From Sphingorhabdus sp. M41 (GTDB lineage: Bacteria; Pseudomonadota; Alphaproteobacteria; Sphingomonadales; Sphingomonadaceae): 64,000 nt of DNA. The position numbers and the translations under genes were made by a program. Every line of letters starts with the position of its first letter. The stretch's first letter is position 1. Location of the stretch: the NCBI RefSeq assembly GCF_001586275.1, contig NZ_CP014545.1:2320501-2384500 (forward strand), given 5' to 3'. This document shows, piece after piece, positions 3,001 through 25,183 of this stretch. The notes beneath the pieces are model-generated. The model was not told the origin of the DNA. It did no database searches and was given only the letters and a program-made list of their open reading frames with translations.

Positions 3001-6000
3001 GCAATGGCGGCGCAGCCGCAGGCGGTGTCGCTGCGATCAATATCAATAATGTTACGGCCCAACTGGACGATCCGACGATCATCGCCAATGCCACAGGCGG
3101 AGACGGTGGAGAGGGGCTGCGTAATTCGGCGAATAGTGCCACCGGCAATGCTGGTGATGGCGGCAATGCAACGGCGGGAACGGCCCGCTTGCAAGTCACC
3201 GGCGCCAGCGGCAATATCGACATTGCCGCCCTCACCTTGCAAGCCAATGCCAGCGGCGGAAACGGCGCGGAAGGCTTCTATCAATTCGGCGGCGGCATCG
3301 AAGCAGGCGACGGCGGATCGGGCGGTGACGCGACAGGCGGCACGATCGAACTGATCGCCCGGACGGGTGGAACGCTGTCCATCACATCCGACGATTTCAC
3401 CATGACCAGCACCGGCACTGGCGGAACTGGCGGAGATGGAGGCAATTCTTATGATAGTGCCGCCGGCGACGCCGGTGACGGCGGCGACGCCACGGGAGGC
3501 ACCAGCCGAATCTTGGCGCAAGGCGGCACCATTACCGGCAATAATCTGACGATAACCACAACCGGCCTGGGCGGTAATGGCGGAGCTCGCGGTCAATATA
3601 GTGTGTTCGGCACCGACGGGGCTGACGGAACAGGCGGAAACGGCTCGGGCGGAACCGGGATTATCGAGATTCAGGAAGGCAGCCCCGGTATCGTGACATT
3701 CACCGATGTTGCCATGAATGCCAGCGGTACGGGCGGCGGCGGCCCCACTGCCGGGACCGGCGCGGGTGGACGTATCGAAATTTCCGACAGTTCGACCGAT
3801 CCTGCGGGACTGATAAGCTTCGACAGCCTGACAGCGAATGCCTTTGATACCGCAATAGGTACCGGCACCGGCTCGAGTTCGGCCACTCTTGGTGGCTTCT
3901 TCACCACCGCCGACAGCGGAGCTATATCGATTCTCGGCAATCTGACCGTGAACATGGCGGGCAATATCTTATATGATCTCGATGGCACGGCCCAGATGAC
4001 GGTCGGCGGCAATGCCAGCCTGATCAGCGGCCAGAATATCCAGATCGACCATATAAATAATGCAACAGCGGTGAATTCCCTGGACATTGCGGGCACATTT
4101 TCCGCGACGGCGCAGGGCAATTTTGTCAGCACGGACGGATCGGTCATCGATGCGGCGGGTACCGCTTCGGTTCGCGCAGAACAAAATGCCACGGTTGCCG
4201 ACCTCTCCGGGGTGGACTCGGTAAATATTACCGCGCTGCAGAATGTGACCGTCGATAACGCTGCCGTCACCGGTACTCCGGACATTTTCTTGTCAGGTTC
4301 GCCACCCTTTGTTTTTACCCCGTCATTGACGATCAATGCTGGCTATAATCCGAACAGCTCACCCTCGCCGACCTTCGATCCCGTTTACAACGCGACCATT
4401 ACCGGCGACCTTACATCGACCGGGATCATCACGGTTGGCGCCGGCGGCAGCGCATTTTTCCGCACGGGAGCTGCCGTTGTATCGGACAATAGTCTGGCAG
4501 TTCGGACCGGTGATGATATTGTCATTGAGTCCGGTGCCAGCTTGACGGCAGCAAACAATCCGGGACTCGCCGCTGATCCTACCTTCACATTCACCAATCC
4601 GGGCAATCTGATCCTCCAGGCGGGCGACTTTACCGGCCTGTTCGGCTCACCCATCGGAACGCTTTCCACCACCATCCTGACGCCGATTTCCTCCATCACT
4701 GCGGCAGGGAATCTCGACGCCAACAGCTATGCGGTCGTGATGACCGCAAATGCGATCGACGGCCTTGGCGGAACGATCACCGCCAGTTCGATCAGCGTCG
4801 ACATCAATGATGCTCCCGCCAATGGTGTGATTCAGAGTAATGATGATGGGCTGCTGAGCGCGCAATGTGTCGAGGGCAATGTCTGTCTTGGCGCGCTGAA
4901 CGCGGACAATCTTGTTCATATCGGACAGGCGAGCAACAATGACGTGATTCAGGGCATCGTGGAATCGGGCACGGTTTCTGCCAACGACATATTGGTCACC
5001 ATCCGCAACGACATCATCATGGGTAGCGACGGCATTGCCACAGTGCTCGATGCGTCCAACCAGTTCCTCGTCGAAAGTACCGAAGGCGATGTCGATCTGC
5101 GCGATGCGTCGATCACCAGTGCGAGCGTGCAGGTCAGCGCGGTGAACGGCAGCCTGCTGGGCTCCGCGTCGCTGACCAGCGGGAATGATATCGGCATCAC
5201 CGTCGGGTCGGACATAGGCGCGGCATCGATCACGACCGGCGGACAATTGACGACCATTGCACTGGTCGGTGGTGCATCGGAAAGCCTTTATACCGTTTCA
5301 GGCAGCATCAACGTCGACGCCTATACGCAGGGCACCGCCCAGCGCTTCCGCGTGGAAGCGGGCAATGATATCTCATTTGGTCAGGTCACTGTCCCGGATA
5401 GCGCCATCGAGTTGATTGCCGCGCAAGCCGGATCGGGCGACGTGTTCCTGGGCACGACCAGCGGCGCCAGCAGCATCGTGCTAGAGGGCGACAACGCCGG
5501 TTACACAGATCTCGATGCCACCGTATCCGCAGCCAGCAGCATTAGCATAGCGGCGACCAACGGCGATATCAGCGGCGGCGATTCCGTCTCCAGCTCCACT
5601 ACAAATCTGGATGCAACAGGTGGAATCTCTTTCGGTTCGCTGACTGCAACTGGGGCGGTAACAACAGACGCTGGCGGAGATATTGATTTCACTGCCGTTG
5701 ACGGGGACGATACTATCACGATGACCGCTGGCGGCGGCATCAATGGCGGTGACCTGACGGCGGCCGATACGCTCAGTCTGAACGGCGGCAATATCACCAT
5801 CGGCGATGCAAGCGGCGGAAATGTCGGGATGACCAGCGATCTGGATATATTGTTCGACACCATCAGTTCGGCTGGTTCAACCACGATGACCGCAACCAGC
5901 GGGACCATAGGCGTGAACACGGCCGCAGGGGATATCACCGGGACGGGCCTCGGCTCGGGAATCAATCTGTTCGCAAATGATGTCACGATTGGCGCCATCA

Positions 6001-8591
6001 CGACCAATGGCGGCGATATCCTGATTTCAGCGGCACAGGACATAACGCTCGGTTCGGCTGCGACAGGCGCCGGAACCCCGACTGCTGCAACTATTGGCTT
6101 GCTGGCCGGAAACGATATTTCCGCAACGGGTTCGCTCAGCGCTGGCGAGGATGTTTCTATCCGGGCGCTGGGCGACCTTGCCCTGGGGACGATATCGGCC
6201 GGAGACGATTTCACGGTTCAGGCAGATGGCGCAATTACGCTGGACAGCGCCACGACCAGTGGAACCGGAGTTGACCTGTTTGCGCTATCGTTCAACTCCG
6301 CCAGTGCCGGTCAGGCCGGATCCATCGCCTTTGCTTCAGAAACCTCCACAGGCTCGAACATTCGATTGACCGGCTCAAGCGATGTGACAGCCACTGGTAC
6401 GCTTAACGCGAATGAAGCTATTATCATTGTCGCGACCGGTACGCCAACGCTGGCCAACGCCGTCAGTGGCGGCGACACCAGCATCACCGGTGCTGCGGTA
6501 ACGCTGAACAGCGGAACGATCAGCGGCGACCTGATTCTCAACGCAACCGCTGGCAGTCTCGATGGCAATGGTACGGTCACAGCCGGCGGCAGCATCGATC
6601 TCGACGCGACCAGCGATATCGGCTTTGGTGATCTTGACGCGCAGGGCGGCACATTCACGATCGACGCGGGAGGCAATATCAATTTCAGCCGCGCCGCAGC
6701 TAGCGACGATATAACACTCAACGCATTCGGCAGCATCGACGGCGGCGATATAGACGGAGCCGCTGCGGTGATGATCGACTCCGGCAGTGATATCATTCTC
6801 GACGATATCACTGGCAGCGGCGATATCGGGATCGTTGCCAATAACGTCAGCGATGTGACGGTCGGATCAGTGGATAGCGCGGCAAACATCAGCGTGCAGA
6901 TGCAGGGGATGTTTGTCGCCGACGAAGTGACCGCGGCACAAGCCGGCGGAGGACAGGTTGCAATCCTCGCCGATAATGGGATTGTCATGCGCAATGTCAC
7001 GGGCAACGACATCGACCTGCAAGCCATCAATGGCTTGATCAACGTAACCAACGATGTCGATGCCACTAACGTCCTTACCGTTTCCGGTGCAGCCATTTCT
7101 GTCGTAACGCAGCATGACATGCGGGTCAGCGCGGAAGCCACCGGTGGCAACATGATATTGTCCTCGACGGCAAATCTGGATATTCAGGGCGCGGAGGCGA
7201 GCGGAGATATTGTCCTGTCCGCCGGCGGTTCGGTAACGATCAACGACACGCTTTCCCTCACCACCTCTGAGCCGATCATCTTCACGGCACCGCTAAATGT
7301 CGCTTCAACCGGCGGGGACATTTCGGTCAGTGCAGCCAACGACGTTGCAATCAACAATCTGGTGAACGCAGCAAATAATTTGCAGATCACGGCAGGCAGC
7401 CTGATCAACATTGATGCCAGCACGGTGGCTAGTGATATTCGAACGGTGAGCGCGGACATGAATATCGGTTCATCAGGCAGTCTTGGCCAGAGCGCTGTGA
7501 CCAGCGATATCCGGATATCCAGCAACGGCACCACGCAGATGATGCTTGGCGACGGGACGGATTTGAGTGGAACCTTCTCACTCAGCAATGACGAGTTCAG
7601 CCGCATCCAGTCGGGCGGTGACTTGACGATCTACGCCGCCGAGACAGGTGTCGTAGGGTTTGACCTGACGGTTCAGGACCTTTCGGCAAGCGCCTTTTCT
7701 GACGGCAATTTCGGCACGGATGGAAACTTCAATCTCTCAGCAGACCAATCGATTAGAGTGAGCGGCAATTTGTCGGTCCAGGGTGGTCTGGACACAAACC
7801 TCAATCTCGCCGCTGGCGATGATCTGTTCGTCAATGCTACGACCGGCTCGATCGGAATGGGAAATGACAGCAGCCTGTCGGGTAATCTGTCCCTCACCGC
7901 TCGCAATATATATGCGATGACGGATCAGGCCTTTGACGATATTCAAGGTCTGAGCACCGCCGATATTGATGCGCGACTTTCCGAGAATGATGGCAATGTT
8001 CGAGACAGCGGTTTCATCATGGCGGACGCGATCAGCGTCACTCTGCTTGCCAGCCAGATCTACGTCCAAAATACGGGCAGCGGCACGGATTTCGATGCTC
8101 GGCGAGGCTTTGTCGCCGGCGCTGGCGGACTTGCCATCAATGCTGGTCCCAGTGGGATCACACCCATTGTGATCAATGGGACTGTCAATGGCGCAACGGG
8201 CATTTCGGCTATTCCAGCCACCACGATAACGGGATCTGGTTTTGACCAACAATCAACAATCAACGGCTGTGTAATCGCCAACCCTGCGAGTTGCGCGCCG
8301 ACACCGACGCCAACACCAACCCCGAGCCCGCCGACACCGAAAATCGACGATCCGGTTCAGGATGTGATCGAAGAAGAGGTGACGCCGGAAGAATATGCGG
8401 CCGACCCATTCGCTTCCAATCCGATCGAGATTAAGGAGAATGAGGACTTGGCCGAAGAACCGATAATCGACGAGCCGGTAACCGGCGCAGGTAATGATGA
8501 CCTGTGGGCGGGCGGATCAGAATGCGAGCTTGATGACAGTGGCAAATGCCTGAGCGATAAAGACGAGGAAGTGCTCGAACCAGCAGAATGA
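3..8591 (+). CDS. Giant secreted beta-strand-repeat adhesin, 5'-truncated
   Basis: The reading frame is open to the left edge, so at least 2862 C-terminal residues of a larger protein are visible. The sequence is low in Cys and aromatics and rich in Gly, Ala, Asn, Asp, Ser and Thr, with endless short beta-strand-like units such as GGDITINITEGG, as in filamentous-hemagglutinin-type (TpsA) or other beta-helix exoproteins. Roughly residues 640-1290 are a Gly-rich block (GGDATGGT, GGNATGGN types). Near the C-terminus is a TP/PTP proline linker, then an acidic tail ending EVLEPAE. There is no autotransporter barrel at the C-terminus, so export by a two-partner (TpsB) or other route is inferred; the expected N-terminal secretion domain and any transporter lie outside the window. 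Three close Cys pairs (CVEGNVC mid-protein, CVIANPASC and CELDDSGKC near the end) recall the C-terminal Cys anchor of HMW1-type adhesins. Family is fairly sure; ligand unknown. Confidence 0.8.
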   Translation: MAPRIVQGGTVTVDGSVAYVAAEQADLTINNGLFDIAIGVGTSDTNGVVHTGTTTGPALTPTVNGMGQVTDADAQTIYMVAVPKNDAVTMLVGGSVGYLVASSATIDDGKIILSAGGDVTASGTLAAPVNSIEENTTSTAATNVQIGGTSPTAFGSTIEMFASNDITMSSQSATSRILISNSDGVQDLNLTAGNQINLNTSGGGQILVNGDVNLTAGTGATGGDINLNIDRTGFATAVDTGLRVSGNLTADSSASGADDFATVRDNGNTGIGQDAIGGDITINITEGGVLDVGGNGIFSTSAQGGKGENQNGSAQAGNIAFNMDSGPADFGGNANFNTAALNAGEGKAGGNGPGLVGSDSTAGDISLSLSGGEMTVTGNLGLTGDADGTSGSDSATAQNNAAVAGTIDLTISGGTHSFGSVGISSKGNGAFSFDAGGNEIFGDVSRGTVNLAISSDGTNLSITDNMVISTETTGNIISDPTVDAVTVSITDTGEGSGLSVTNALSIQTEAADGLAGTGLTSGSVSITADNGDFTFGSLNVDTSATVEFSATELSSLLTAGDVDIVAQNGGTISGGSVNIYANAATQATAGVDANGGKLLIHANDGFIGFTGLLNADVSAQAGATDATAVTNAQGGTVRILLEGTSPTNSSINFANIDFDSDGSIDTNLETTSPFEGDGGTGNGGSIIFDLFGGTFVAADIETSASGAGGRGGDVVTLSSPTATAPFASAFAAPLDLTVVSTALAASVSAGDGGNGQGGNVTFNLNGGNATVTNLTIAANGFGGDGADGDIDDSTLGGSGGRGTGGSAVFNAQAGSLTVTNTLTVSADGNNQSIAPYGSYGRGGFGDGTDAGAGGEGIGGTATFNLDGTATIAAGTVVISARADGGYGGSSTSTTDGAGTTLLAGVGGAGGNATGGNATFNNTTGTINFAQLSVTSVGTGGLGGNVSGLSSSDGDNSGGAGGSGTGGNATININQDDLNNAVYVINASGIGGDGGDGLDGGNGGAAAGGVAAININNVTAQLDDPTIIANATGGDGGEGLRNSANSATGNAGDGGNATAGTARLQVTGASGNIDIAALTLQANASGGNGAEGFYQFGGGIEAGDGGSGGDATGGTIELIARTGGTLSITSDDFTMTSTGTGGTGGDGGNSYDSAAGDAGDGGDATGGTSRILAQGGTITGNNLTITTTGLGGNGGARGQYSVFGTDGADGTGGNGSGGTGIIEIQEGSPGIVTFTDVAMNASGTGGGGPTAGTGAGGRIEISDSSTDPAGLISFDSLTANAFDTAIGTGTGSSSATLGGFFTTADSGAISILGNLTVNMAGNILYDLDGTAQMTVGGNASLISGQNIQIDHINNATAVNSLDIAGTFSATAQGNFVSTDGSVIDAAGTASVRAEQNATVADLSGVDSVNITALQNVTVDNAAVTGTPDIFLSGSPPFVFTPSLTINAGYNPNSSPSPTFDPVYNATITGDLTSTGIITVGAGGSAFFRTGAAVVSDNSLAVRTGDDIVIESGASLTAANNPGLAADPTFTFTNPGNLILQAGDFTGLFGSPIGTLSTTILTPISSITAAGNLDANSYAVVMTANAIDGLGGTITASSISVDINDAPANGVIQSNDDGLLSAQCVEGNVCLGALNADNLVHIGQASNNDVIQGIVESGTVSANDILVTIRNDIIMGSDGIATVLDASNQFLVESTEGDVDLRDASITSASVQVSAVNGSLLGSASLTSGNDIGITVGSDIGAASITTGGQLTTIALVGGASESLYTVSGSINVDAYTQGTAQRFRVEAGNDISFGQVTVPDSAIELIAAQAGSGDVFLGTTSGASSIVLEGDNAGYTDLDATVSAASSISIAATNGDISGGDSVSSSTTNLDATGGISFGSLTATGAVTTDAGGDIDFTAVDGDDTITMTAGGGINGGDLTAADTLSLNGGNITIGDASGGNVGMTSDLDILFDTISSAGSTTMTATSGTIGVNTAAGDITGTGLGSGINLFANDVTIGAITTNGGDILISAAQDITLGSAATGAGTPTAATIGLLAGNDISATGSLSAGEDVSIRALGDLALGTISAGDDFTVQADGAITLDSATTSGTGVDLFALSFNSASAGQAGSIAFASETSTGSNIRLTGSSDVTATGTLNANEAIIIVATGTPTLANAVSGGDTSITGAAVTLNSGTISGDLILNATAGSLDGNGTVTAGGSIDLDATSDIGFGDLDAQGGTFTIDAGGNINFSRAAASDDITLNAFGSIDGGDIDGAAAVMIDSGSDIILDDITGSGDIGIVANNVSDVTVGSVDSAANISVQMQGMFVADEVTAAQAGGGQVAILADNGIVMRNVTGNDIDLQAINGLINVTNDVDATNVLTVSGAAISVVTQHDMRVSAEATGGNMILSSTANLDIQGAEASGDIVLSAGGSVTINDTLSLTTSEPIIFTAPLNVASTGGDISVSAANDVAINNLVNAANNLQITAGSLINIDASTVASDIRTVSADMNIGSSGSLGQSAVTSDIRISSNGTTQMMLGDGTDLSGTFSLSNDEFSRIQSGGDLTIYAAETGVVGFDLTVQDLSASAFSDGNFGTDGNFNLSADQSIRVSGNLSVQGGLDTNLNLAAGDDLFVNATTGSIGMGNDSSLSGNLSLTARNIYAMTDQAFDDIQGLSTADIDARLSENDGNVRDSGFIMADAISVTLLASQIYVQNTGSGTDFDARRGFVAGAGGLAINAGPSGITPIVINGTVNGATGISAIPATTITGSGFDQQSTINGCVIANPASCAPTPTPTPTPSPPTPKIDDPVQDVIEEEVTPEEYAADPFASNPIEIKENEDLAEEPIIDEPVTGAGNDDLWAGGSECELDDSGKCLSDKDEEVLEPAE

Positions 8592-14656: not shown

Positions 14657-16063
14657 ATGCAAATGGGGGATAAAATTTTGTGGGTGCCTAGCTGGTCCGT
14701 ACTGGCCGCTAGCCTGTTCTGTTCGGCACTGGTCGCAACGGCATTTTTCCTCTCGACCATGGTAAGCCCCGCTCCGGTGGAGGCCGCCACCGACCTTCCC
14801 GGCGGAACCTATCTGGGCGTCGCGACCTGCGGCGGATCCACATGCCACGGGCGACAGGAAGCCGATGGCAAGATTGTCCGGCAGGACGAAATCATGCGCT
14901 GGCAGGAAGATTCCACACCCGGCGGCGCCCATAGCCGCGCTTTCCGGGTCCTGCGCGAACCGCGCAGCATCGCGATAGCCAAGCGTCTCGGCATCAAGGA
15001 TGCAGCGTCTGCTTCCGAATGCCTCGGCTGCCACAGCACCGCGGCGGCGAGCAAGGGGCCGCGGTTCCAGACCAATGACGGTGTCGGCTGCGAATCCTGT
15101 CATGGTGCTTCGTCCGCCTGGCTCTCCAGCCATTATGCGGTTGGCGCCAGTCACGCCCGCAATGTTTCGCAGGGTCTGGTACCGCTCGACAATCCCAAGG
15201 CCCGCGCCAGCGTCTGCCTCGACTGCCATTTCGGCAGCGCCAAGAAAGGCCAGTTCGTCGATCACCGGATCATGGCCGCCGGCCATCCCCGCATCTCGTT
15301 CGAGATGGACCTGTTCTCGACCCTGCAGCAGCATCATGACGAGGATGTCGACTATATCCGCCGCAAGGGCCGGACCAACAGCGTCCAGTTCTGGGCCGTC
15401 GGTCAGGCGATGGCGCTGGAGCGTTCGCTCAATCTGTTCACCAAACCGGCTCTCGCCACCGAAGGCATATTCCCGGAATTTTACTTCTACGACTGCCACA
15501 GCTGTCACCGCCGGATCTACGACGACGCGTCCGCCCGTCCGACGTCCGTCGCCAATCCCGGACGTTCGATCCCCGAAGGCATGCCGCCCTATAATGACGA
15601 GAATATGATCATGCTCAGCGCCGCAATCAAAGTGGCAGCGCCGGACATTGCGGGTGAATTCGACGGCCGGTCGAAGGCATTTCATGCCGCCATGGCGCAA
15701 GGCCGCGGTCCTGCGGTCGAGGAAGCCGCCCGTTTGCGGCAATATGCTACCAGGCTTGCGGACCGTTTCTCCCGCGCCAGCTTTGGCCGCGACCAGACCT
15801 TCCAGATCATGGAAACCATCGCCGGCCAGGCAATCTCGCCGCGCTTCACCGATTATGAAGGCAGCGTACAGGCGGTCATGGCGATCGACACATTGCTCAA
15901 CGGACTGGTCAATAGCGGTCAGGTCAGCGAAGCCGCAGCCGCCAGCCTGCGCGGCCAGATCAATGTCGCTTATGCTGCGGTCGCCGAACCCAATGGTTAC
16001 GAGCCGCTGAAATTCCGCCGCGCGCTGGGCAGCGCCGTCCGCACGATCCGGTCGCTCAGATAA
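14657..16063 (+). CDS. Multiheme cytochrome c (c554-like, five heme motifs)
   Basis: Exported c-type cytochrome of 468 residues. An N-terminal hydrophobic segment (about residues 13-37, ending APVEA) acts as signal peptide or membrane anchor. Four canonical heme sites are CLGCH, CESCH, CLDCH and CHSCH; a fifth, CGGSTCH, has four residues between the cysteines and is atypical. Heme spacing and extra histidines (AGHP, HSRAFRV) recall the cytochrome c554 family, in which closely packed hemes relay electrons in the periplasm. The last ~170 residues are helical and lack Cys. A start two codons later (14663) is possible. It is first of four co-directional genes with gaps of about 11 nt or less, so it is probably the periplasmic electron carrier of this unit. 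Confidence 0.88.
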   Translation: MQMGDKILWVPSWSVLAASLFCSALVATAFFLSTMVSPAPVEAATDLPGGTYLGVATCGGSTCHGRQEADGKIVRQDEIMRWQEDSTPGGAHSRAFRVLREPRSIAIAKRLGIKDAASASECLGCHSTAAASKGPRFQTNDGVGCESCHGASSAWLSSHYAVGASHARNVSQGLVPLDNPKARASVCLDCHFGSAKKGQFVDHRIMAAGHPRISFEMDLFSTLQQHHDEDVDYIRRKGRTNSVQFWAVGQAMALERSLNLFTKPALATEGIFPEFYFYDCHSCHRRIYDDASARPTSVANPGRSIPEGMPPYNDENMIMLSAAIKVAAPDIAGEFDGRSKAFHAAMAQGRGPAVEEAARLRQYATRLADRFSRASFGRDQTFQIMETIAGQAISPRFTDYEGSVQAVMAIDTLLNGLVNSGQVSEAAAASLRGQINVAYAAVAEPNGYEPLKFRRALGSAVRTIRSLR

Positions 16064-16074
16064 GGGATTTGGTG

Positions 16075-18114
16075 ATGCGCAAACCCTTTTTTACATCTGC
16101 CATTTCTGCCGCAGCACTGCTGCTGACCTCATGTGGCGGCGGTGGTGACAGCAATGATTTTGGCGGCACACCGGCACCTTCCCCAGCACCGTCTCCAGCC
16201 CCTGCCCCGCCGCCGACCGGAACCGGCGGCCTGTTCGCGGCACCGTTACAGAGGTCGCTGACGGTAACCGATGTACAAACAATCATTGCGCAGGCCGTTG
16301 GCGAAGCCCGGGCCCGTAATTTGCCTTCGGTGATCGCCGTGGTCGACCGGGTTGGCAATGTGCTGGCCGTATTCGACATGAATGGCTCGAACAACGGATC
16401 GACCGAGATCACGATCAGCAACAGGCAGATTGGCGGCCTGGCCGGTCCGACGGACCTTGTCGGGCTGCAGGGCCAGCAAGTCCCGGCTGCAGCAGCGGCA
16501 ATCGCCAAGGCGGTAACCGGTGCCTATCTGTCCAGCGGTGGCAACGCATTTTCCAGCAGGACGGCCAGCCAGATCGCCCAGGAACATTTCCCTCCTGCAC
16601 CAACCACAGTCGGACTCGAGAGCGGACCATTGTTCGGCGTCCAGTTCAGCCAGCTCCCCTGCTCGGACCTGTCGCAGCGTTTCAGTTCCATGGGCGGTAC
16701 CGGAGCGCTGATCGGTCCGAAAAGATCGCCGCTCGGACTCGCCGCTGATCCCGGCGGACTGCCTCTGTACAAGGACGGTGTCGTCGTCGGTGGCATCGGC
16801 GTCATGGGCGACAGCGACTATGGCTTCGACCCCAATATACTTGATGTCGATGTCGATAACGAGGAAGCCATTGCTCTGGCTGGAATGCAGGGCTTTGCCC
16901 CGCCTGCATCTATTACCGCCAACCGGATATCGGTCGATGGCACATCCTTGCGCTTCAGCGACATGGTGGTCTCCGACCTGTCACCGCTGCAGAATAATTT
17001 TGCCGCCATCAACAATATCGCCATCGGCCAGCTGATAGCCGTCACGGGCTATACCAATGGCCCGATCATCGCCGGCACCGCTTATGGAACCGAAGCGTCC
17101 GGCATCCGGGCCTCCAGTGCAGCCGAATTCAAGAATAGCGATGCCTTTGTGCTGACCGACGGCACTGGCGCCAATCGCTATCCGATCCGCGGCGGCACAG
17201 ATGCTGCTGCAGTGACCACGCCGCTGTCGGAAGCCGAAGTGCGCGCCATATTGGAAGAAGCCTTCATCGTCATCAGCCGGGCAAGAGCGCAGATTCGCCA
17301 ACCGCTGGACAGCCGAATGCAGGCCACCGTCAGCGTGGTCGATACCCATGGCCAGATATTGGGCATCGTACGGACACCCGACGGTCCGATCTTCGGTACC
17401 GACGTGTCCCTGCAAAAGGCAAGAACGGCGGCCTTTTTCTCGAACACAGTCGCAGCCCAGCAATTGCTTGCAACACCGGTCTTCGCTCCCTTCGCCAATG
17501 TGCCGGTCCATGTCCAGCGGGTACGCAATTTTCTCGGCGACCCCAATGCCCTGACCGGCACTGTCGCTTTCGCCGATCGTTCCGGCGGCAATCTGTCCCG
17601 GCCCTATTTTCCCGATGGTGAAATCGGCCGTCCTCCCGGGCCGTTGTCGATCGATCAGTCATCCAGATTCAGCCCGTTCGCGGTTGGCCTGCAGCTTGAC
17701 CTGGTCTTTCCCAATATTGTCCAGCATGTCGGCTTTGTCCGGTCCAACGGTGCCAGCGCCGACACCGACCAGCGCTGCACGCAATTGCCGGCCATAGCCG
17801 GAACCGGCGGACAGAACCGTCTCTCCAACGGCATCCAGATTTTCCCGGGCAGCGTGCCAATCTATCGCGGTGACAAGCTGATCGGCGGCATCGGCGTCTC
17901 CGGCGACGGTATCGATCAGGACGACATGGCCAGCTTCCTCGGCCTTAATAACGCCGCTGTCCGGCTGGGGACTATCAGCAACGCACCAAAAGCGATCCGC
18001 GCTGACAATGTCGTTGTCGATCTGGGCAATGCCAATGTCCGGCTGCGCTATGTAAACTGCCCCTTCGCGCCGTTCCTCGACAGCAACGAACAAAATGTCT
18101 GCGAGGGGCTGTAG
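16075..18114 (+). CDS. Lipoprotein with two GlcG/HbpS-like heme-binding domains
   Basis: A lipoprotein signal (ISAAALLLTSCGGG, lipobox LLTSC about 20 residues in) is followed by a Pro/Ala linker (APSPAPSPAPAP). Two copies of a GlcG/HbpS-type (formerly DUF336) domain follow: one from about residue 60 (LTVTDVQTIIAQAVGEA, GLPLYKDGVVVGGIGVMGD), the second from about residue 385 (LSEAEVRAILEEAF, SVPIYRGDKLIGGIGVSGD). Single-domain relatives are about 140 aa; at about 680 aa this is a duplicated, enlarged form with an extra insert in each half. HbpS-type proteins bind heme; a heme-binding or scaffold role beside the cytochromes is inference. ATG 16075 follows AAGGGA; TTG and GTG codons just upstream are less likely starts. 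The next gene begins 5 nt after its stop. Confidence 0.85.
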   Translation: MRKPFFTSAISAAALLLTSCGGGGDSNDFGGTPAPSPAPSPAPAPPPTGTGGLFAAPLQRSLTVTDVQTIIAQAVGEARARNLPSVIAVVDRVGNVLAVFDMNGSNNGSTEITISNRQIGGLAGPTDLVGLQGQQVPAAAAAIAKAVTGAYLSSGGNAFSSRTASQIAQEHFPPAPTTVGLESGPLFGVQFSQLPCSDLSQRFSSMGGTGALIGPKRSPLGLAADPGGLPLYKDGVVVGGIGVMGDSDYGFDPNILDVDVDNEEAIALAGMQGFAPPASITANRISVDGTSLRFSDMVVSDLSPLQNNFAAINNIAIGQLIAVTGYTNGPIIAGTAYGTEASGIRASSAAEFKNSDAFVLTDGTGANRYPIRGGTDAAAVTTPLSEAEVRAILEEAFIVISRARAQIRQPLDSRMQATVSVVDTHGQILGIVRTPDGPIFGTDVSLQKARTAAFFSNTVAAQQLLATPVFAPFANVPVHVQRVRNFLGDPNALTGTVAFADRSGGNLSRPYFPDGEIGRPPGPLSIDQSSRFSPFAVGLQLDLVFPNIVQHVGFVRSNGASADTDQRCTQLPAIAGTGGQNRLSNGIQIFPGSVPIYRGDKLIGGIGVSGDGIDQDDMASFLGLNNAAVRLGTISNAPKAIRADNVVVDLGNANVRLRYVNCPFAPFLDSNEQNVCEGL

Positions 18115-18119
18115 GACTG

Positions 18120-20225
18120 ATGGCGGGACTTTCAGCCTCCTTTGTACCGATCCTGGCGGTGATGTCCGGTCAGGCCGAGCAGATGGAGTCCCAGCGTGCC
18201 TCAGTCGAGGATATGGAAGCGTCATTGGCTGCTTTGCTGGCAGGGGAAAGATTTGCCTGGATTCGTTCAAATTCTGCCGATTTTGGTACAAAATTTGGCA
18301 TGGGCGGACCAGATCCGGACGAAGAAGAGGCAGAAAAGGACGAAAAAACCGCAGCGGACCCTACGGCCCTGAAACATGCCTCCAATTCTTCCAATCCGGA
18401 GCAATCCGAAACCCCGGATCAGCTGGAAATGGACTTTGACAGCCTGGCTGCCGATGACGCCCTGATCGACGGCCGACGCCGGCCCGGTGTCCAGAAAAGC
18501 CTGCCCGATCCGGTGACCCAGAATAATCCGGGTGCCGTCAATGCCCCGCCGCCCGAAGCTTTCCCCACCGACGAATTTCCGGTCCCCGACCGCTGGCGGA
18601 TCATGCAAAGCCTCTGCCCCGCCAAGGGCGGCGACCAGTCGATCTACACCCTGTTCGGCGCCTTGCGGAACAACTGCCAAAGCACGCTCAATCCCTATGC
18701 CCAGAATGTTCTGAAAGGCGACAAGCCGATCCCGGCGGACAAAAAACCCGGCTTTCTCAAGGGCGATGACTGGTTCTTCGTCGCCAATCTTATTTCCGAT
18801 ACGGTCGTCGAACCCCGCAGCTTTCCTATCCCGGTCGGCGTCCAGACGACAGAACGCCCGAACAGTATCGACGTGTTCGGACGCTCCGGTTCGGAAGTCT
18901 ATGCCCAGACTTTCATCACCGGATTTGCCCTGATCAAGGGTTCCACCGCTTATAAACCGCCGGACGTGGAATATCGCCTGACACTGGCAACCCAGGTCAA
19001 TCATGTGAATGTGCCGGAACGCCGGGTCCTGTTCGTCGAACCATCCAAATCCTCGCACCGCACCGACTGGTTCGTCGGCGTGCAGGAGGCGTTTTTCGAC
19101 TATCATATCCGCAACACTTCGGCGCGTTATGACTTCGACAGTTTCCGCATCGGTATCCAGCCGATGCAGGCGGATTTCCGCGGCTTCCTGTTCCAGGACA
19201 ACCAGCTCGGTTTCCGCCTGTTCGGTACCCGCGACAACAACCGGATCCAGTATAATCTCGGTGCCTTTGTCCAGCTGGAAAAAGACACCAATTCCGGTCT
19301 CAACGACATCACCCAGACCCCGCGCGAAAGCTATATTTTCTTCGCCAATCTATACCGACAGGACTTGCCCTTTGTCGGCCTGACCAGCCAGTTCAGCCTG
19401 ACCTATAATATGAACCGCGAAAAGTCCGACGTCGAAATTGACGACAACGGTTTTCCGGTCCGTCCCGCATTGCTAGGCGACCTCAGGGGCCGGGCCTATG
19501 ATGTCGTCTATCCCGGCTATGCCTTTGATGGCCGGATCGGGCGGATCAATCTCACCGGGCAGGTTTACGGCGCCTTTGGCGAGGACCGGAACAGCTTCTT
19601 CACCAGCGAACCGGCGAAAATCGAAGCCTATTTCGGCGCGCTGGAAGCCAGCTATGACTTCGATTTCCTGCGCTTCCGCGCATCCGGCCTGTTCGCCAGC
19701 GGCGACGGCAATCCCTATAATAATACCGAAGCCGGCTTTGATGCGATCTTCGAGAATCCCATCTTTGCCGGAGCCGACACCAGCTACTGGATCCGCCAGA
19801 CCATTCCGTTCGCCGGTGGTGGCCGGGTGATCTCGATCAATGGCCGCAACGGCATTCTCAACAGCCTCCGTTCCTCCAAGGAACAGGGTCAGAGCAATTT
19901 CAACAATCCCGGCACGATATTGACCGGCGTTGGCGTCGACGCTGATCTGACCCCCGATTTCCGGCTCTCCGGCAATGCCAACCATCTCTGGTTCCACAAG
20001 ACAGAAGGCCTCGAAGCCTTGCGCGTCGAAGGGTCGATTCCGAAGGATATCGGCTGGGATCTGTCGCTGGCTGCCATCTACCGCCCGAAAGCCACGCAGA
20101 ATATGGTATTTCGCCTCTCGGGCGCTGCTTTGATACCCGGAAAAGGATTCAAGGATTTGTTCGACCAGACCGATAAACGCGACTTCCACTATTCAATTTT
20201 GCTCAATGCGATACTGGCTTTCTGA
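18120..20225 (+). CDS. Probable outer-membrane beta-barrel protein of the cytochrome cluster
   Basis: A 701-residue protein I cannot place in a named family. A short hydrophobic N-terminus (MAGLSASFVPILAVMSG) is followed by a charged, low-complexity region to about residue 150 (PDEEEAEKDEK). From about residue 200 to the end, alternating hydrophobic/polar strands rich in Tyr, Phe, Asn and Gly (FRLFGTRDNNRIQYNLGAF) end in a terminal Phe (LLNAILAF), the usual signature of an outer-membrane barrel. No CXXCH is present. Size and position between cytochrome genes recall MtrB/PioB barrels of porin-cytochrome conduits, but no direct homology is claimed. ATG 18120 follows AGGA; its stop overlaps the next start by 1 nt (TGATG), implying translational coupling. 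Confidence 0.7.
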   Translation: MAGLSASFVPILAVMSGQAEQMESQRASVEDMEASLAALLAGERFAWIRSNSADFGTKFGMGGPDPDEEEAEKDEKTAADPTALKHASNSSNPEQSETPDQLEMDFDSLAADDALIDGRRRPGVQKSLPDPVTQNNPGAVNAPPPEAFPTDEFPVPDRWRIMQSLCPAKGGDQSIYTLFGALRNNCQSTLNPYAQNVLKGDKPIPADKKPGFLKGDDWFFVANLISDTVVEPRSFPIPVGVQTTERPNSIDVFGRSGSEVYAQTFITGFALIKGSTAYKPPDVEYRLTLATQVNHVNVPERRVLFVEPSKSSHRTDWFVGVQEAFFDYHIRNTSARYDFDSFRIGIQPMQADFRGFLFQDNQLGFRLFGTRDNNRIQYNLGAFVQLEKDTNSGLNDITQTPRESYIFFANLYRQDLPFVGLTSQFSLTYNMNREKSDVEIDDNGFPVRPALLGDLRGRAYDVVYPGYAFDGRIGRINLTGQVYGAFGEDRNSFFTSEPAKIEAYFGALEASYDFDFLRFRASGLFASGDGNPYNNTEAGFDAIFENPIFAGADTSYWIRQTIPFAGGGRVISINGRNGILNSLRSSKEQGQSNFNNPGTILTGVGVDADLTPDFRLSGNANHLWFHKTEGLEALRVEGSIPKDIGWDLSLAAIYRPKATQNMVFRLSGAALIPGKGFKDLFDQTDKRDFHYSILLNAILAF

Positions 20226-23200
20226 TGCGCTGGCGGAACCTCCTGACCGGCAATAGCAAATTGATCCTCGCAGGACTGGGCGCCTTGGCCCTGACCGTCA
20301 CTCCGGCATCGTTGTTGCTGGCGGCAGGCAAGGAAAAGCCGCAGAAAGTCGATTACAGTTTCACGCCCCCTGCCCCGCAAAACCAGACCTGGGACGAAGC
20401 GCAGGTCAAGAGCAGCGGCTGCCAGACCTGTCATACGGACAGCGACCAGAAAACCATGCACGAGACGCCAGCAGTGGTGCTCGGCTGCGTCGATTGTCAC
20501 GGTGGCGATGCTTCGGTTGTCGGTGACAACAAGTGGGGCAAGAACAGCCTCGCCTATATGGACGCGCTGACCAAGGCGCATGTCCTGCCCAAATATCCGG
20601 AAAGCTGGCACTGGCCCTCTTCCGCCAATCCCAAACGCAGCTATGGCCTGCTGAACAAGGAATCGCCGGAATTCGTGCGTTTCGTCAATCCGTCGGACTA
20701 TCGGGTTGCGCGCGAATCCTGCGGTGCCTGCCATATGGAAATCATCGAGGCTTCCGAGCGCTCGCTGATGGCAACCGGTGCGATGCTATGGGGTGGCGCT
20801 GCCTATAATAACGGCATTGTACCTTTCAAAAATTATGTCTTTGGCGAGGCTTACACCCGCGATGGCGAGGCCGCGACGATCAAGTCTCCGGGCAATCCGC
20901 ACGGCACCGTGACCGAGGCCGAGAAGAAACGCGGCGCGCTGCCGATCCTCTATCCGCTGCCGACCTGGCACACGGTTCCGCCGGGCGACATCTTCCGTGT
21001 GTTCGAGCGCGGTGGTCGCAATATCAACACCCAGTTCCCCGAGATCGGACTGCCCAATATCGGCGGCATCATCCAGCGGCTGGAAGAGCCCGGACGTCCC
21101 GATCTCAAGCAATCCAATCGCGGCCCCGGAACCGGCCTGCGCGTCGCCATTCCGGTGCTCAATATCCACAAGACCCGGCTCAACGATCCGTTCATGTGGT
21201 TCATGGGCACCAATGACCAGCCAGGCGACTATCGCCAGTCCGGCTGCGCCGGCTGCCACGTTGTCTATGCCAATGACCGCGAACCGCGGCACAGCTCGAT
21301 CTGGGCGAAATATGGCCGAGACGGCCAGACCCAGACCAGTGATCCGACCATAAGAAACCTGAAAGAGGGCGAGCATCGGTTCGGCAGCTTTGGCACTTAT
21401 GATGCTGCCCACGGTGCAAAAGGCGTCCATGGGGATGACAAGAAGCCAGCCGCAGATGGGCATGGCAAAGACACCGGCCATGGCGATGATCATGCCGATG
21501 AGACGGATCCCGCCAAGCGCGAAAAAGGCCATCCGATACAGCATGCCTTCACCCGCGCCATCCCGACCGCACAGTGCATGAACTGTCACATGCACCAGCC
21601 GAATATCTTCCTGAACAGCTATCTTGGCTATACCATGTGGGATTATGAATCGGACGCCCCCTATATGTGGCCGGGTCCGGACAATCTCACTCCAAAGCCA
21701 GAGGGAATGAGCGACGAGGAATATCAGAAGAAATATAAACAGCAGAAATATCCCGATGCCGAGGAAGTCCGCAAGGTGCTCGACCGCAATCCCGAAGGCG
21801 CCGCACCAAAGGGCCTCTGGGCGGATATCGACTTCCTGCGCAACGTCTATGACCTCAACGGCGATGCGAAGGACACGCAATTTGCCGACTATCACGGCCA
21901 TGGCTGGAATTTCCGGGCGATCCTGAAACGGGACCGCGACGGCAATCTGCTCGATGCCGAGGGCAATCAGGCAAGCTACGGCACCGATGCCGACAATATC
22001 GTCGCCAATGATGACCCGGAAAAATTCCGCAAGGAAGGCGAAGGGAAATTTGTCGAACCGGGTATAAATCCGGGAAAATCCGTCCATATGATGAGCATCC
22101 ATGCCGAAGTCGGCATGCAGTGCGCTGACTGCCATTTTTCGCAGGACAGCCACGGCAACGGCCTGATCTACGGCGAAGTGGCCAATGCGGTCGAGATCAG
22201 CTGCAAGGATTGCCACGGCACCGCCGACGCTTATCCGACCCTGCGGACCAGCAATCTGGCGGCACGACCAAAAGGCAGCAATCTTGGTCTGTTGCGCAAC
22301 GCCAATGGCGAGCGGCGCTTCGAATGGTTCGAGAACCCCGAGGGCAAGCGGGTGCTGATCCAGCGGTCTATCGTCGATCCCGAGCTCAGCTGGCAAGTCA
22401 GTCTGGTCAAGGATAGCGTCGATCGTTCGCATCCCGACTTTAATCTCAAGGCGGCGCGGGCGAAGCTTATGTCCAAAAGCGGAGCAGAAACGGGCAAATA
22501 TGCATTCGGAAGCGGCGTTCCGAAAGAAGAACGGGCGCATAAAGACGAGAATATGGTCTGTTTCACCTGTCATCTCAGCTGGACGACAAGCTGCGGTGGC
22601 TGCCATCTGCCAATCGAAGCCAACTGGCAGGCCGACAGCCACAAATATGAAGGGGGTACGACAAGGAACTACGCAACCTATAATCCGCAGGTCGCCCGCG
22701 ACCAGATGTTCCAGCTCGGTCGCCACCAGACGAGCAAAGGCAATGTCATCGCTCCGGTCCGCTCGACATCGGCCCTGATCCTGTCCTCGACCAATATCAA
22801 CCGAGAACGCATCTACGTCCAGCAGCCGCCGATTTCCGGTATCGGCTTTTCATCGCAAGCTTTTGCGCCGCATTTCCCGCACACCGTGCGCAAGAACGAA
22901 ACCAAGCAATGTTCCGATTGTCACGTCAGCGAGGCTAATGACAATAATGCGATCATGGCCCAAACACTTCTGCAGGGTACGAATTTCGTGAATTTCATCG
23001 GCCTTCACGCCTGGGTCGGGCTGGAAAAGGGCTTTGAAGCGGTCCGGGTTACCGAATGGGATGAACCGCAGGCCGTCATCGGCTCCTATCTGCAGAAATA
23101 TGCCTATCCGGACTATTGGAAGATGCATGTCGAGAATAACAACCGCGAACTGATCGACTGGGTACGCGGTGAACGGCTCGACAAGAATCTGTCCGGCGAA

Positions 23201-24421
23201 ACCAAGGCGCTCGAAGAGTTCAAAAATGTCGTTCAGGGCACCAGCGATGCCGTTCGCTGTCTACAATTGCGCGGCGAATATATGTTTGTTGCCGAAGGCA
23301 AAGGCGGTTTCCGCGCCTATGATGTCGCGTCAATCGGCAACAAGGGATTCTCGGAACGCATCGTCAAGGCGCCCTTCTCGTCGCTTGGTCATGACACGCA
23401 TGTAGACACCAAGAACGCCACCTGCATGGCACTGGCCACCAACCAGCCGATTGCACCAACCCGCAACACCAAGGAACTGCGGGAGGTCAACGAGGAACAG
23501 GCTTTCCATCCGATCTATAATTATGCAGTGATCACCGACAGCGAAGAAGGCCTGATCCTGGTCGATATCAACACATTGGCCGATGGCGAATTCCGCAACA
23601 ACTTCTTCAAGCGCAGCCTGACCTGGAACGAAGGCGGAGTGCTTGACGGAGCACAGCATATCACGCTGGCCGGTCATTATGCCTATATTACCACGGTTGC
23701 AGGATTGACTCTGATCGATCTCGATGACCCGCTGAAACCGCGGCATATCATCACCATTCCGATGACCGATGCCAGAGCCTCGGCGCTGCAATTCCGCTAT
23801 CTATGGGTTACCGATGTCGACGGCGTGAAACTCTTCAATGTTACCGACATGGAAAAGCCCGTTGCAGTGCCTTCAGGGACGATACCGCTGCGCAACGCCC
23901 GGCGTCTCTACCTCGCCCGTACCTATGCCTATATTGCGGCGAAGGACGAAGGTCTGGTGATCGCCAATATCACGCGGCCGGAAGCACCTACCGTTTACCT
24001 GAAGGAAACCTTCGGCGGTTCCATGAATGATGCAGAGGATGTGATCGTCGGGTCGACCAACGCCACTCTGTTTGCCTATGTCGCCGATGGACGCAATGGC
24101 CTGAAGGTGGTCCAGTTGACCACGCCCGACAGTCAGAAAAACTTCTATGGCTTCTCACCCGCTCCCAAGCCGGAACTGATCGCCTTTGCCCGTACTCCCA
24201 AACCGGCACTGGCCTTGTCCAAGGGTCTGGACCGCGACAGGGCGGTGGATGAGACAGGCGGACAGATGGCGGTCTTCGGCCGGCTCGGTTCGCGACCATT
24301 CACCCGCAGCGAGATGCAGCGCTTCTACCTGAACAGCAAGGGGGAGCCCTATTTTGTGAGGGACGAGCCGGATCTGGCAGACTGGATCGGACCGGTTCCG
24401 CCGTTGCTTGCCAGACCATAG
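20225..24421 (+). CDS. Decaheme cytochrome c fused to LVIVD-like beta-propeller repeats
   Basis: Exported 1398-residue protein with a signal peptide (LILAGLGALALTVTPAS) and ten CXXCH heme sites: CQTCH (~66), CVDCH (~88), CGACH (~166), CAGCH (~340), CMNCH (~450), CADCH (~632), CKDCH (~659), CFTCH (~778), CGGCH (~789) and CSDCH (~895). A His/Asp/Lys-rich stretch near residues 400-430 (HGDDKKPAADGHGKDTGHGD) may bind metal. From about residue 1095 on there are at least five repeats of the type YNYAVITDSEEGLILVDI, HYAYITTVAGLTLIDL and TYAYIAAKDEGLVIANI, matching the LVIVD propeller repeat. The gene is translationally coupled to the barrel gene. The architecture suggests a large periplasmic or surface electron-transfer protein whose propeller docks a partner or substrate; the redox partner is unknown. 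All heme motifs are intact. Confidence 0.88.
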   Translation: MRWRNLLTGNSKLILAGLGALALTVTPASLLLAAGKEKPQKVDYSFTPPAPQNQTWDEAQVKSSGCQTCHTDSDQKTMHETPAVVLGCVDCHGGDASVVGDNKWGKNSLAYMDALTKAHVLPKYPESWHWPSSANPKRSYGLLNKESPEFVRFVNPSDYRVARESCGACHMEIIEASERSLMATGAMLWGGAAYNNGIVPFKNYVFGEAYTRDGEAATIKSPGNPHGTVTEAEKKRGALPILYPLPTWHTVPPGDIFRVFERGGRNINTQFPEIGLPNIGGIIQRLEEPGRPDLKQSNRGPGTGLRVAIPVLNIHKTRLNDPFMWFMGTNDQPGDYRQSGCAGCHVVYANDREPRHSSIWAKYGRDGQTQTSDPTIRNLKEGEHRFGSFGTYDAAHGAKGVHGDDKKPAADGHGKDTGHGDDHADETDPAKREKGHPIQHAFTRAIPTAQCMNCHMHQPNIFLNSYLGYTMWDYESDAPYMWPGPDNLTPKPEGMSDEEYQKKYKQQKYPDAEEVRKVLDRNPEGAAPKGLWADIDFLRNVYDLNGDAKDTQFADYHGHGWNFRAILKRDRDGNLLDAEGNQASYGTDADNIVANDDPEKFRKEGEGKFVEPGINPGKSVHMMSIHAEVGMQCADCHFSQDSHGNGLIYGEVANAVEISCKDCHGTADAYPTLRTSNLAARPKGSNLGLLRNANGERRFEWFENPEGKRVLIQRSIVDPELSWQVSLVKDSVDRSHPDFNLKAARAKLMSKSGAETGKYAFGSGVPKEERAHKDENMVCFTCHLSWTTSCGGCHLPIEANWQADSHKYEGGTTRNYATYNPQVARDQMFQLGRHQTSKGNVIAPVRSTSALILSSTNINRERIYVQQPPISGIGFSSQAFAPHFPHTVRKNETKQCSDCHVSEANDNNAIMAQTLLQGTNFVNFIGLHAWVGLEKGFEAVRVTEWDEPQAVIGSYLQKYAYPDYWKMHVENNNRELIDWVRGERLDKNLSGETKALEEFKNVVQGTSDAVRCLQLRGEYMFVAEGKGGFRAYDVASIGNKGFSERIVKAPFSSLGHDTHVDTKNATCMALATNQPIAPTRNTKELREVNEEQAFHPIYNYAVITDSEEGLILVDINTLADGEFRNNFFKRSLTWNEGGVLDGAQHITLAGHYAYITTVAGLTLIDLDDPLKPRHIITIPMTDARASALQFRYLWVTDVDGVKLFNVTDMEKPVAVPSGTIPLRNARRLYLARTYAYIAAKDEGLVIANITRPEAPTVYLKETFGGSMNDAEDVIVGSTNATLFAYVADGRNGLKVVQLTTPDSQKNFYGFSPAPKPELIAFARTPKPALALSKGLDRDRAVDETGGQMAVFGRLGSRPFTRSEMQRFYLNSKGEPYFVRDEPDLADWIGPVPPLLARP

Positions 24422-24546
24422 AAATGAGCGGGGGCCGCGCTATAAAACAGCACGACCCCCTGTCCCCCAATACGCAACTCGAGGGAATTAACGACCCTGC
24501 GCAACATGGCGCCGGATTTAGTTCAAAAAGTTGAAACGCAAAGGCG

Positions 24547-24951
24547 TCAGCAGTTGCCGTCGATCGCACGACCGGCCAATGCACCTACTGCACCGCCAAT
24601 GATCGCACCTTCGGTCTTGTCACCGCGACCGGCAATTTCATTGCCCAGCAGACCACCGGCTATCGCACCGATGATCGTGCCACCGGTTCCGCGGTCACAG
24701 CCCCGATAGCGACGGTTGCTGGAATAGCGATTGTCACGGTAGCGGCGCTGGTCCCGATAGTCTCGGCGATCACGATAGCGGTCGCCACGATAATAGTCTC
24801 CGCGCCGATATTCGCGATATCCGTCGCTACGCGCCTGCTCGTAATATCCGCCATTGTAATAGCCGCCGCGTGCTTCTGCAGGAGCGGCAAAAGCCATTGT
24901 TGCAATAGCTGCGGTTGAAATGGCTAGACTTCCCAAAATTTTGTTGATCAT
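24547..24951 (-). CDS. Glycine-zipper 2TM-domain envelope protein
   Basis: Small exported protein (134 aa) with a signal peptide (ILGSLAISTAAIATMAFAAPAEA), then a Tyr/Arg/Asp-rich low-complexity stretch (YRRGDYYRGDRYRDRR) and a C-terminal glycine zipper (GGTIIGAIAGGLLGNEIAG and AIIGGAVGALAGRAI) characteristic of the Rick_17kDa/glycine-zipper 2TM family. The two closing Cys (GCDRG and NC at the end) may form a disulfide. ATG 24951 has GGAG eight bases ahead; a GTG three codons upstream is too close to that site. It is convergent with the cytochrome operon and divergent from the SDR gene. Relatives are envelope proteins; the exact role is unknown. Confidence 0.85.
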   Translation of the reverse strand: MINKILGSLAISTAAIATMAFAAPAEARGGYYNGGYYEQARSDGYREYRRGDYYRGDRYRDRRDYRDQRRYRDNRYSSNRRYRGCDRGTGGTIIGAIAGGLLGNEIAGRGDKTEGAIIGGAVGALAGRAIDGNC

Positions 24952-25183
24952 TTTCTTCACTCCAAAAGGGTTCTCCCGGAACCCGAATCAATTGCTGCCT
25001 GACAAACATGCTTCTAGGAGCGCTGGCTTGACCAATTGCTGAATGCTGACTTTATCTAAGGTTCATATTTGACGCCGTTTTTATGAATATATTGAACCAA
25101 AGCATCAGGACTAGCTTTTTAATCCATTGTCGCCTGTCACCCCGTCCGATAGCAATTGGCCGATATAAAAAAAGGGAAGAGCG

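Follow-up and report, generated by a model that had tools for sequence, protein, structure and literature searches.

A putative electron conduit of the outer membrane in Sphingorhabdus sp. M41 and its probable inner-membrane counterpart

In a window of 64,000 nucleotides from Sphingorhabdus sp. M41 (2,320,501-2,384,500 of the complete 3.34-Mb chromosome, labelled G000), we studied a cluster of four genes, here called P1 to P4, encoding two multiheme c-type cytochromes, a probable lipoprotein and a predicted outer-membrane β-barrel. We propose that they form one half, the one at the outer membrane, of a system that transfers electrons across the cell envelope, a reading to which we assign a probability of roughly 0.6. 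Judged from sequence, the system is probably an electron conduit leading from reduced nicotinamide adenine dinucleotide (phosphate), NAD(P)H, to the outside; our confidence in this function is fair but not strong. It is apparently undescribed, and its parts seem to differ from those of the electron wires known in metal-breathing bacteria. A preliminary description of the cluster had proposed a conduit-like unit of just these four genes. The barrel model and the conserved gene order support this proposal, and no curated conduit family was matched, but neither the expected number of strands nor the completeness of the unit as four genes could be upheld.

The four-gene cluster and its conservation

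All four open reading frames (ORFs) lie on the plus strand, at 14657-16063 (P1), 16069/16075-18114 (P2), 18120-20225 (P3) and 20225-24421 (P4). Counting P2 from the ATG at 16075, 11 nt separate P1 from P2 and 5 nt P2 from P3, while P3 and P4 overlap by 1 nt; the close co-directional arrangement noted before was thus borne out by ORF coordinates and sequence.

This arrangement was kept well beyond the genome studied here; its confinement to that genome had been named beforehand as a finding that would speak against the unit. A pattern scan for P3 in 84,980 species genomes gave 149 confirmed relatives, 80 of which were kept for locus comparison; 78 of the 80 locus titles named Sphingomonadales or genera thereof, the remaining two, L041 and L078, gave no more than a broader group. 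P1-P2-P3-P4 recurred in the same order and on the same strand in 73 of these loci, with 52-96% identity over the best segment, and the cluster is therefore more than a chance assembly. At the other seven (L041, L052, L054, L079, L084, L090, L099), P1 or P4 was missing where the fetched stretch ended. The nearest named relatives by P3 were Parasphingorhabdus and Sphingorhabdus strains (93-94% identity). At one locus, L091 (Sphingopyxis sp. PET50), P1, P2 and P4 were each split into several tblastn pieces, possibly by frameshifts in the record.

P1 (14657-16063, 468 aa) is a pentaheme c-type cytochrome of the Cytochrome_C554-like kind (39.3 bits, cut-off 20.8), with an N-terminal signal or anchor judged by eye. 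Its five heme motifs, as previously counted, comprise four CXXCH and one CX4CH; the number stands if the latter is included, but not for CXXCH alone. Of the 72 sphingomonad-type orthologues with a complete ORF, 71 shared this 4+1 set and the odd one had 2+0; all ten distant copies shared it as well. P2 (16075-18114, 679 aa from the ATG at 16075, with TTG 16069 and GTG 16072 as alternative starts) is a probable lipoprotein with HbpS-like/GlcG domains. It passed the gathering score of PF03928 (83.6 bits, cut-off 25) over four stretches. A loose pattern detected a lipobox-like motif in 71 of 75 5'-complete orthologues, in line with the earlier assignment; among the four misses, L077 ends in LMACGGG and is lipobox-like after all, whereas the other three are not.

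P4 (20225-24421, 1398 aa) is a decaheme c-type cytochrome with a C-terminal LVIVD-repeat, propeller-like region (PF08309, 48 bits, cut-off 20.2), which also matched several cytochrome c3/c7 models. Its Sec-type N-terminus, like the signal of P1, agreed by eye with the signal peptides reported before, and its ten CXXCH motifs were confirmed by counting; P2 and P3 have none. Among 66 complete orthologues of the sphingomonad type, 63 likewise had ten motifs (the outliers having 9, 7 and 5, one each), as did all 20 distant copies. Between residues 30 and 1010, 16 His outside the CXXCH motifs were invariant across 35 sequences.

For P3 (18120-20225, 701 aa) the assignment as an outer-membrane β-barrel is based on a structure model, on Foldseek and VIA-align comparisons with AlgE and OprD, and on conservation. 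The model, built with 37 sequences, had a mean predicted local distance difference test score (pLDDT) of 55.3 and a predicted template modelling score of 0.55. It contained 18 strands in residues 218-701, the final one running to residue 700, one before the C-terminal Phe, in agreement with the barrel-like ending described previously. Further parts were an N-terminal domain (110-217) and a long, highly conserved loop (527-598). A barrel was thus obtained and not the soluble or non-barrel fold that had been set beforehand as the contrary outcome; 20 or more strands had been anticipated, however, and the 18 of the model are of the AlgE/OprD kind.

AlgE was the top match in the PDB (Z 24.5, root-mean-square deviation (rmsd) 3.0 over 354 residues; Foldseek E 3.9e-15), tied with MOMP (Z 24.3, rmsd 4.8) and the OprD/Occ channels (Z about 24), OpdQ for instance giving Z 24.0 and rmsd 3.3 over 328 residues. 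Sequence identity to the AlgE and Occ structures was 8-14%. Pfam searches with the window P3 returned no family up to E 0.1 and only a chance-level PAXIP1_C match at E 0.34; the window P3 gave no match to Alginate_exp either, for which two of 37 orthologues showed a weak one (best E 0.0058). Searches of solved-structure sequences with P3 and with P4 gave no match up to E 1. An MtrB/OmbB-like barrel was unsupported for P3, which showed 18 strands and AlgE/OprD matches instead; MtrB was not among the Foldseek matches listed, an absence that by itself excludes nothing. In-frame CTG codons lie 5' of the P3 start at 18099 and 18117, and a start at 18099 would add an Arg.

The loop 527-598 would lie on the outer side if the N-terminus is periplasmic, as we assume; 46 of its 72 columns were invariant. 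Over all putative outer loops, 106 of 205 columns were invariant (60 of 133 without loop 527-598), as compared with 92 of 237 in the strands. In ordinary porins the loops are variable. The conserved loops of P3 are therefore probably turned towards the lumen or towards a fixed partner, and their conservation is as expected for a partner-bound surface.

The inner-membrane module and its linkage to the cluster

The four genes do not make up the whole unit, contrary to the preliminary description. A probable electron-input half lies at about 564.7-569.9 kb of the same chromosome (G000:C1) and stands beside P2-P4 in many relatives. It comprises an oxidoreductase with flavin adenine dinucleotide (FAD), cyclic-nucleotide (cNMP) and 4Fe-4S modules, a small b-type membrane protein resembling cytochrome b561, and a decaheme cytochrome with an FHA domain (FHA-decaheme), and is followed by a metallophosphoesterase gene. 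The lead to this module came from annotated plasmid regions; raw ORF clusters were muddled by spurious long ORFs. On the Sphingobium plasmid pMSHV, P1-P4 are followed by two small genes, a metallophosphoesterase and then, divergently, the same trio of FHA-domain cytochrome (ten CXXCH), small membrane protein and FAD/cNMP/4Fe-4S oxidoreductase, adjoined by a CcmH-like TPR gene. Plasmid records with a full-length P4 numbered 12 for Sphingobium and one for Sphingopyxis.

The FAD protein scored on Pyr_redox, cNMP and Fer4 models and carries two cNMP-binding domains. Its match to Pyr_redox_2 (104.3 bits, cut-off 26.1) suggests NAD(P)H as substrate, and no NCBIfam cut-off was reached among the matches listed (best YpdA, 121.8 against 339.9). 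In the b561-like protein, His 95, 109, 119, 268 and 282 were invariant in all 14 copies and include two pairs, each 14 residues apart, which is the pattern of stacked b hemes. The FHA-decaheme had ten CXXCH in each of 19 copies (17 distant ones, our own and one from a plasmid) and did not match TIGR03508 up to E 0.001; the FHA domain itself scored above the cut-off of 20.7 bits in our own copy (23.5) and below it in the pMSHV copy (17.6). The metallophosphoesterase of our chromosome resembles SpdA (138 against 400 bits) and CpdA (80.8 against 225), in both cases below the cut-off.

Linkage was examined in 20 distant stretches of up to 20 kb, 19 from the same class and one from another (G985). 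They represent 20 of 27 genomes outside the family with a clear P4, G352, G449, G590, G626, G654, G670 and G720 being left out. At 17 of the 20 loci, the genes for the b561-like protein, the FHA-decaheme, P2, P3 and P4 were co-directional and followed each other in that order. Elsewhere P1 sat between FHA-decaheme and P2 (L168), the contig end came first (L155), or the 20 kb held no FHA-decaheme (L167). Thirteen of the 17 showed the FAD protein, encoded 5' of the b561-like gene at 11 loci and 3' of P4 at two; the four other stretches broke off no more than about 120 bases from the b561-like gene. P1 was in view in eight of the 17.

The two decaheme cytochromes are also inherited jointly. Among 298 Sphingomonadaceae genomes of 90% completeness or more, P4 and FHA-decaheme occurred in the identical 119, belonging to 37 of 91 genera, and neither was ever found alone. 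Their genes were less than 12 kb apart in 58 genomes; in 25 from 14 genera, that of the window included, a single contig carried both at a distance of 17 kb to 2.2 Mb; they fell on separate contigs in 36, where drafts give no distance. Presence varied inside some genera, g46 and g54 each holding genomes with both and without both. Beyond the family, a draw of 387 genomes from the class gave 28 P4 matches, of which 27 were clear (three from the own family) and all accompanied by an FHA-decaheme match. The match in G363, with 28% over about 170 residues (E 6.5e-11), was attributed to another cytochrome and dropped; among the clear ones, P4 in G352 was limited to a piece of 162 residues, and G720 matched FHA-decaheme weakly (1e-19). 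A draw of 397 genomes from the phylum gave 13 clear P4 matches, ten from the own family, two from the class and one from outside it (G985), after those in G813 and G897 had been dropped as other cytochromes. Among 60 relatives, G002 and G014 had FHA-decaheme without P3 and G008 had P3 without FHA-decaheme; all three assemblies are less than 90% complete.

Electron path, competing explanations and gene neighbourhood

In the mechanism that we propose, the FAD protein would oxidize cytoplasmic NAD(P)H and pass the electrons over its 4Fe-4S clusters, and cyclic nucleotides might gate it through the two binding domains. The b-type diheme protein would take the electrons across the inner membrane over its two b hemes, onto the ten hemes on the periplasmic side of the membrane-anchored FHA-decaheme and from there to the pentaheme P1. 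The outer membrane would be crossed at the P3 barrel, whose plug could be either P1 or the N-terminal domain of P3. Together with the lipoprotein P2, decaheme P4 would be kept at or close to the outer surface and would receive the electrons there; the path would likely end in the reduction of an acceptor outside the cell, for example Fe(III), Mn oxides or humics.

As a whole, this would be a complete, undescribed conduit from cytoplasmic NAD(P)H to the surface, gated by cyclic nucleotides, with an 18-strand barrel of the AlgE/OprD type and an LVIVD decaheme, present in about two fifths of the sampled Sphingomonadaceae and scattered in other Alphaproteobacteria. We put this forward tentatively, at somewhat less than even odds. 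Its gating part is based on the two cNMP domains, the SpdA/CpdA-like metallophosphoesterase beside the input enzyme and a CHASE2-cyclase in a linked exoprotein locus; the joint occurrence of cyclase, cNMP-binding oxidoreductase and metallophosphoesterase suggests, but does not prove, cyclic-nucleotide control.

Several observations weigh against an electron path to the surface. P2 has no heme motif. A lipobox pattern preceded P4 in only 2 of 79 orthologues; lacking this and any known surface anchor, P4 is possibly periplasmic, and its model (residues 30-1010) was unusable, with a mean pLDDT of 33.8. Confidence in the P3 model was middling (mean 55.3), much of the first 160 residues was unresolved, and the signal peptide looked atypical by eye, with no positive n-region in most orthologues printed. 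An 18-strand barrel of AlgE/OprD size could also pass a small solute instead of electrons. The membrane protein of the input half scored below the cut-off of Pfam cytochrome b561 (24.9 against 30.1 bits). The genomes compared are related and non-independent, and raw counts ignore kinship. In the class draw, 7 of 387 genomes (G387, G394, G434, G447, G533, G558, G662) had an FHA-decaheme match without P4; those of G447 (3e-20) and G533 (9e-12) were weak and may be other cytochromes. Where P4 is missing, FHA-decaheme may feed a different outer-membrane partner.

The main rival explanation places a reductase, respiratory or detoxifying, in the periplasm and gives it a porin of its own. In this view, P3 would import a small soluble substrate (an oxyanion, an aromatic or a metal complex), which P1, P4 and the FHA-decaheme would reduce in the periplasm, and no electrons would cross the outer membrane. 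Solute channels (AlgE, OprD/Occ, Z about 24) are indeed what P3 most resembles in fold, P4 is without a lipobox, and its top NCBIfam match is ExtM from a selenite/tellurite operon of Geobacter, though far below the cut-off (65.6 against 800 bits). A possible precedent for a porin admitting the substrate is ExtI, the loss of which lowers selenite and tellurite reduction in Geobacter and to which the authors of that work tentatively assign a role in uptake (PMC5877670). Against this stand the putative outer loops of P3, conserved like an interface, and the lipoprotein P2 as a member of the unit. Moreover, the 16 invariant His of P4 could provide distal ligands to all ten hemes, which would leave no obvious open catalytic heme, and a Pfam search of P1-P4 found no substrate-specific enzyme domain. 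We regard such a reductase as rather unlikely, but as the alternative to be taken most seriously. Still more improbable in our view is an extracytoplasmic ferric or heme reductase in which the same path would reduce Fe(III) or heme at the surface for uptake and not for respiration. The HbpS-like domains of P2 would fit such a role, as would the likeness of the inner-membrane protein to small b-type electron carriers and a gene of two-partner-secretion transporter size 5' of the cluster on a Sphingobium plasmid, annotated as heme:hemopexin-binding protein. Nevertheless, no TonB receptor, siderophore or heme-uptake gene was annotated in three plasmid regions, where many genes are unnamed, and 25 c-type hemes exceed by far the number in any assimilatory ferric reductase known to us.

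If the proposed conduit exists, bacteria regarded as plain aerobes would commonly be capable of extracellular electron transfer. Most of the outer-membrane electron conduits known so far belong to specialists of metal respiration. Organisms that abound in soil, in the sea and where biodegradation takes place could then exchange electrons with their surroundings, using a barrel smaller than MtrB and an NAD(P)H-type input possibly under cyclic-nucleotide control.

The exoprotein locus lies just 5' of the window, where genes for a CHAT-TPR protein, the CHASE2-cyclase, a FecR-like protein and TpsB stand in a row (G000:C1 about 2,311,834-2,319,736; L141:6334-14236). A giant two-partner-secretion exoprotein gene of the TpsA type follows and runs into the window, its 3' part occupying 3-8591 on the plus strand; four metabolic genes, judged by eye, lie between it and P1. 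All of the row but the CHAT type is also present before P1 on a Sphingobium plasmid, and the TpsA-like protein of the window is similar (7e-40) to the one directly preceding P1 on pMSHV. We considered this locus as a core part of the system and rejected it: TpsB was found in 31 of the 60 relatives (E up to 1e-30), and G033 has P3 and FHA-decaheme with TpsB absent. It is probably an associated system. Directly 3' of P4, an inverted repeat of 14 pairs (24430-24460) has a T-rich tail on the minus strand. It may be the terminator of the convergent gene at 24547-24960 (minus strand), and perhaps of P4 too; this gene encodes a 137-aa protein with Gly-rich repeats which by eye resembles the 17-kDa antigen and similar small outer-membrane proteins.

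Comparison with known systems

No description of the cluster was found among the matches listed in a search of open-access literature, with subscription papers and preprints outside its scope. The preliminary description had not been able to place the cluster in a recognised conduit family, and the curated-family searches led to the same result. P2 shares PF03928 with HbpS/GlcG proteins but carries the domain repeated, in a probable lipoprotein and inside a cytochrome operon. With AlgE and OprD/Occ, P3 shares the barrel fold; the Alginate_exp model, however, does not recognize the window P3, and no alginate genes were annotated in the three plasmid regions.

The proposed system would work like a porin-cytochrome conduit, yet its cytochromes fall outside the Mtr families and below the cut-off for ExtM. 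As in MtrCAB, MtoAB and PioAB, the barrel gene is accompanied by genes for two multiheme cytochromes, one smaller and one larger. P1 has five heme motifs and not ten, and scored 19.5 bits against a cut-off of 192.2 for the MtrA/DmsE family (TIGR03508). The ten-heme P4 gave no listed match to the MtrC/OmcA family (TIGR03507) up to E 1, although the Pfam MtrC/MtrF domain PF22113 lay just at its cut-off (30.6 against 30 bits). P3 has no MtrB-type Pfam match, and its 18 modelled strands compare with 26 in MtrB. None of the curated NCBIfam ext models reached its cut-off for the cluster proteins; the best, ExtM (NF040943), gave 65.6 against 800 bits for P4.

The ext conduits of Geobacter sulfurreducens, ExtABCD among them, comprise a multiheme periplasmic cytochrome, pentaheme and larger multiheme partners, and lipoproteins, according to the part of PMC6148476 consulted. 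Of the conduit definition given there, the multiheme periplasmic cytochrome has its counterpart in P1 by its heme motifs and by a signal judged by eye, its periplasmic place being our inference, and the integral outer-membrane β-strand protein has its counterpart in P3 by prediction. The definition further includes a lipoprotein with redox cofactors; here P2 is a probable lipoprotein with no CXXCH, and P4 has hemes and no lipobox. P4 thus differs from the ext pattern in lacking a lipobox and P2 in lacking c-type heme, and the ext description consulted (PMC6148476) contains no HbpS or LVIVD part and no cNMP/FAD input. ExtB, a putative outer-membrane conduit protein, has 18 predicted transmembrane segments in that same description, which sets it beside the 18 modelled strands of P3 by description and not by sequence. 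Barrel size alone is therefore not decisive, and the present system would make the question of the minimum barrel size for a heme wire testable.

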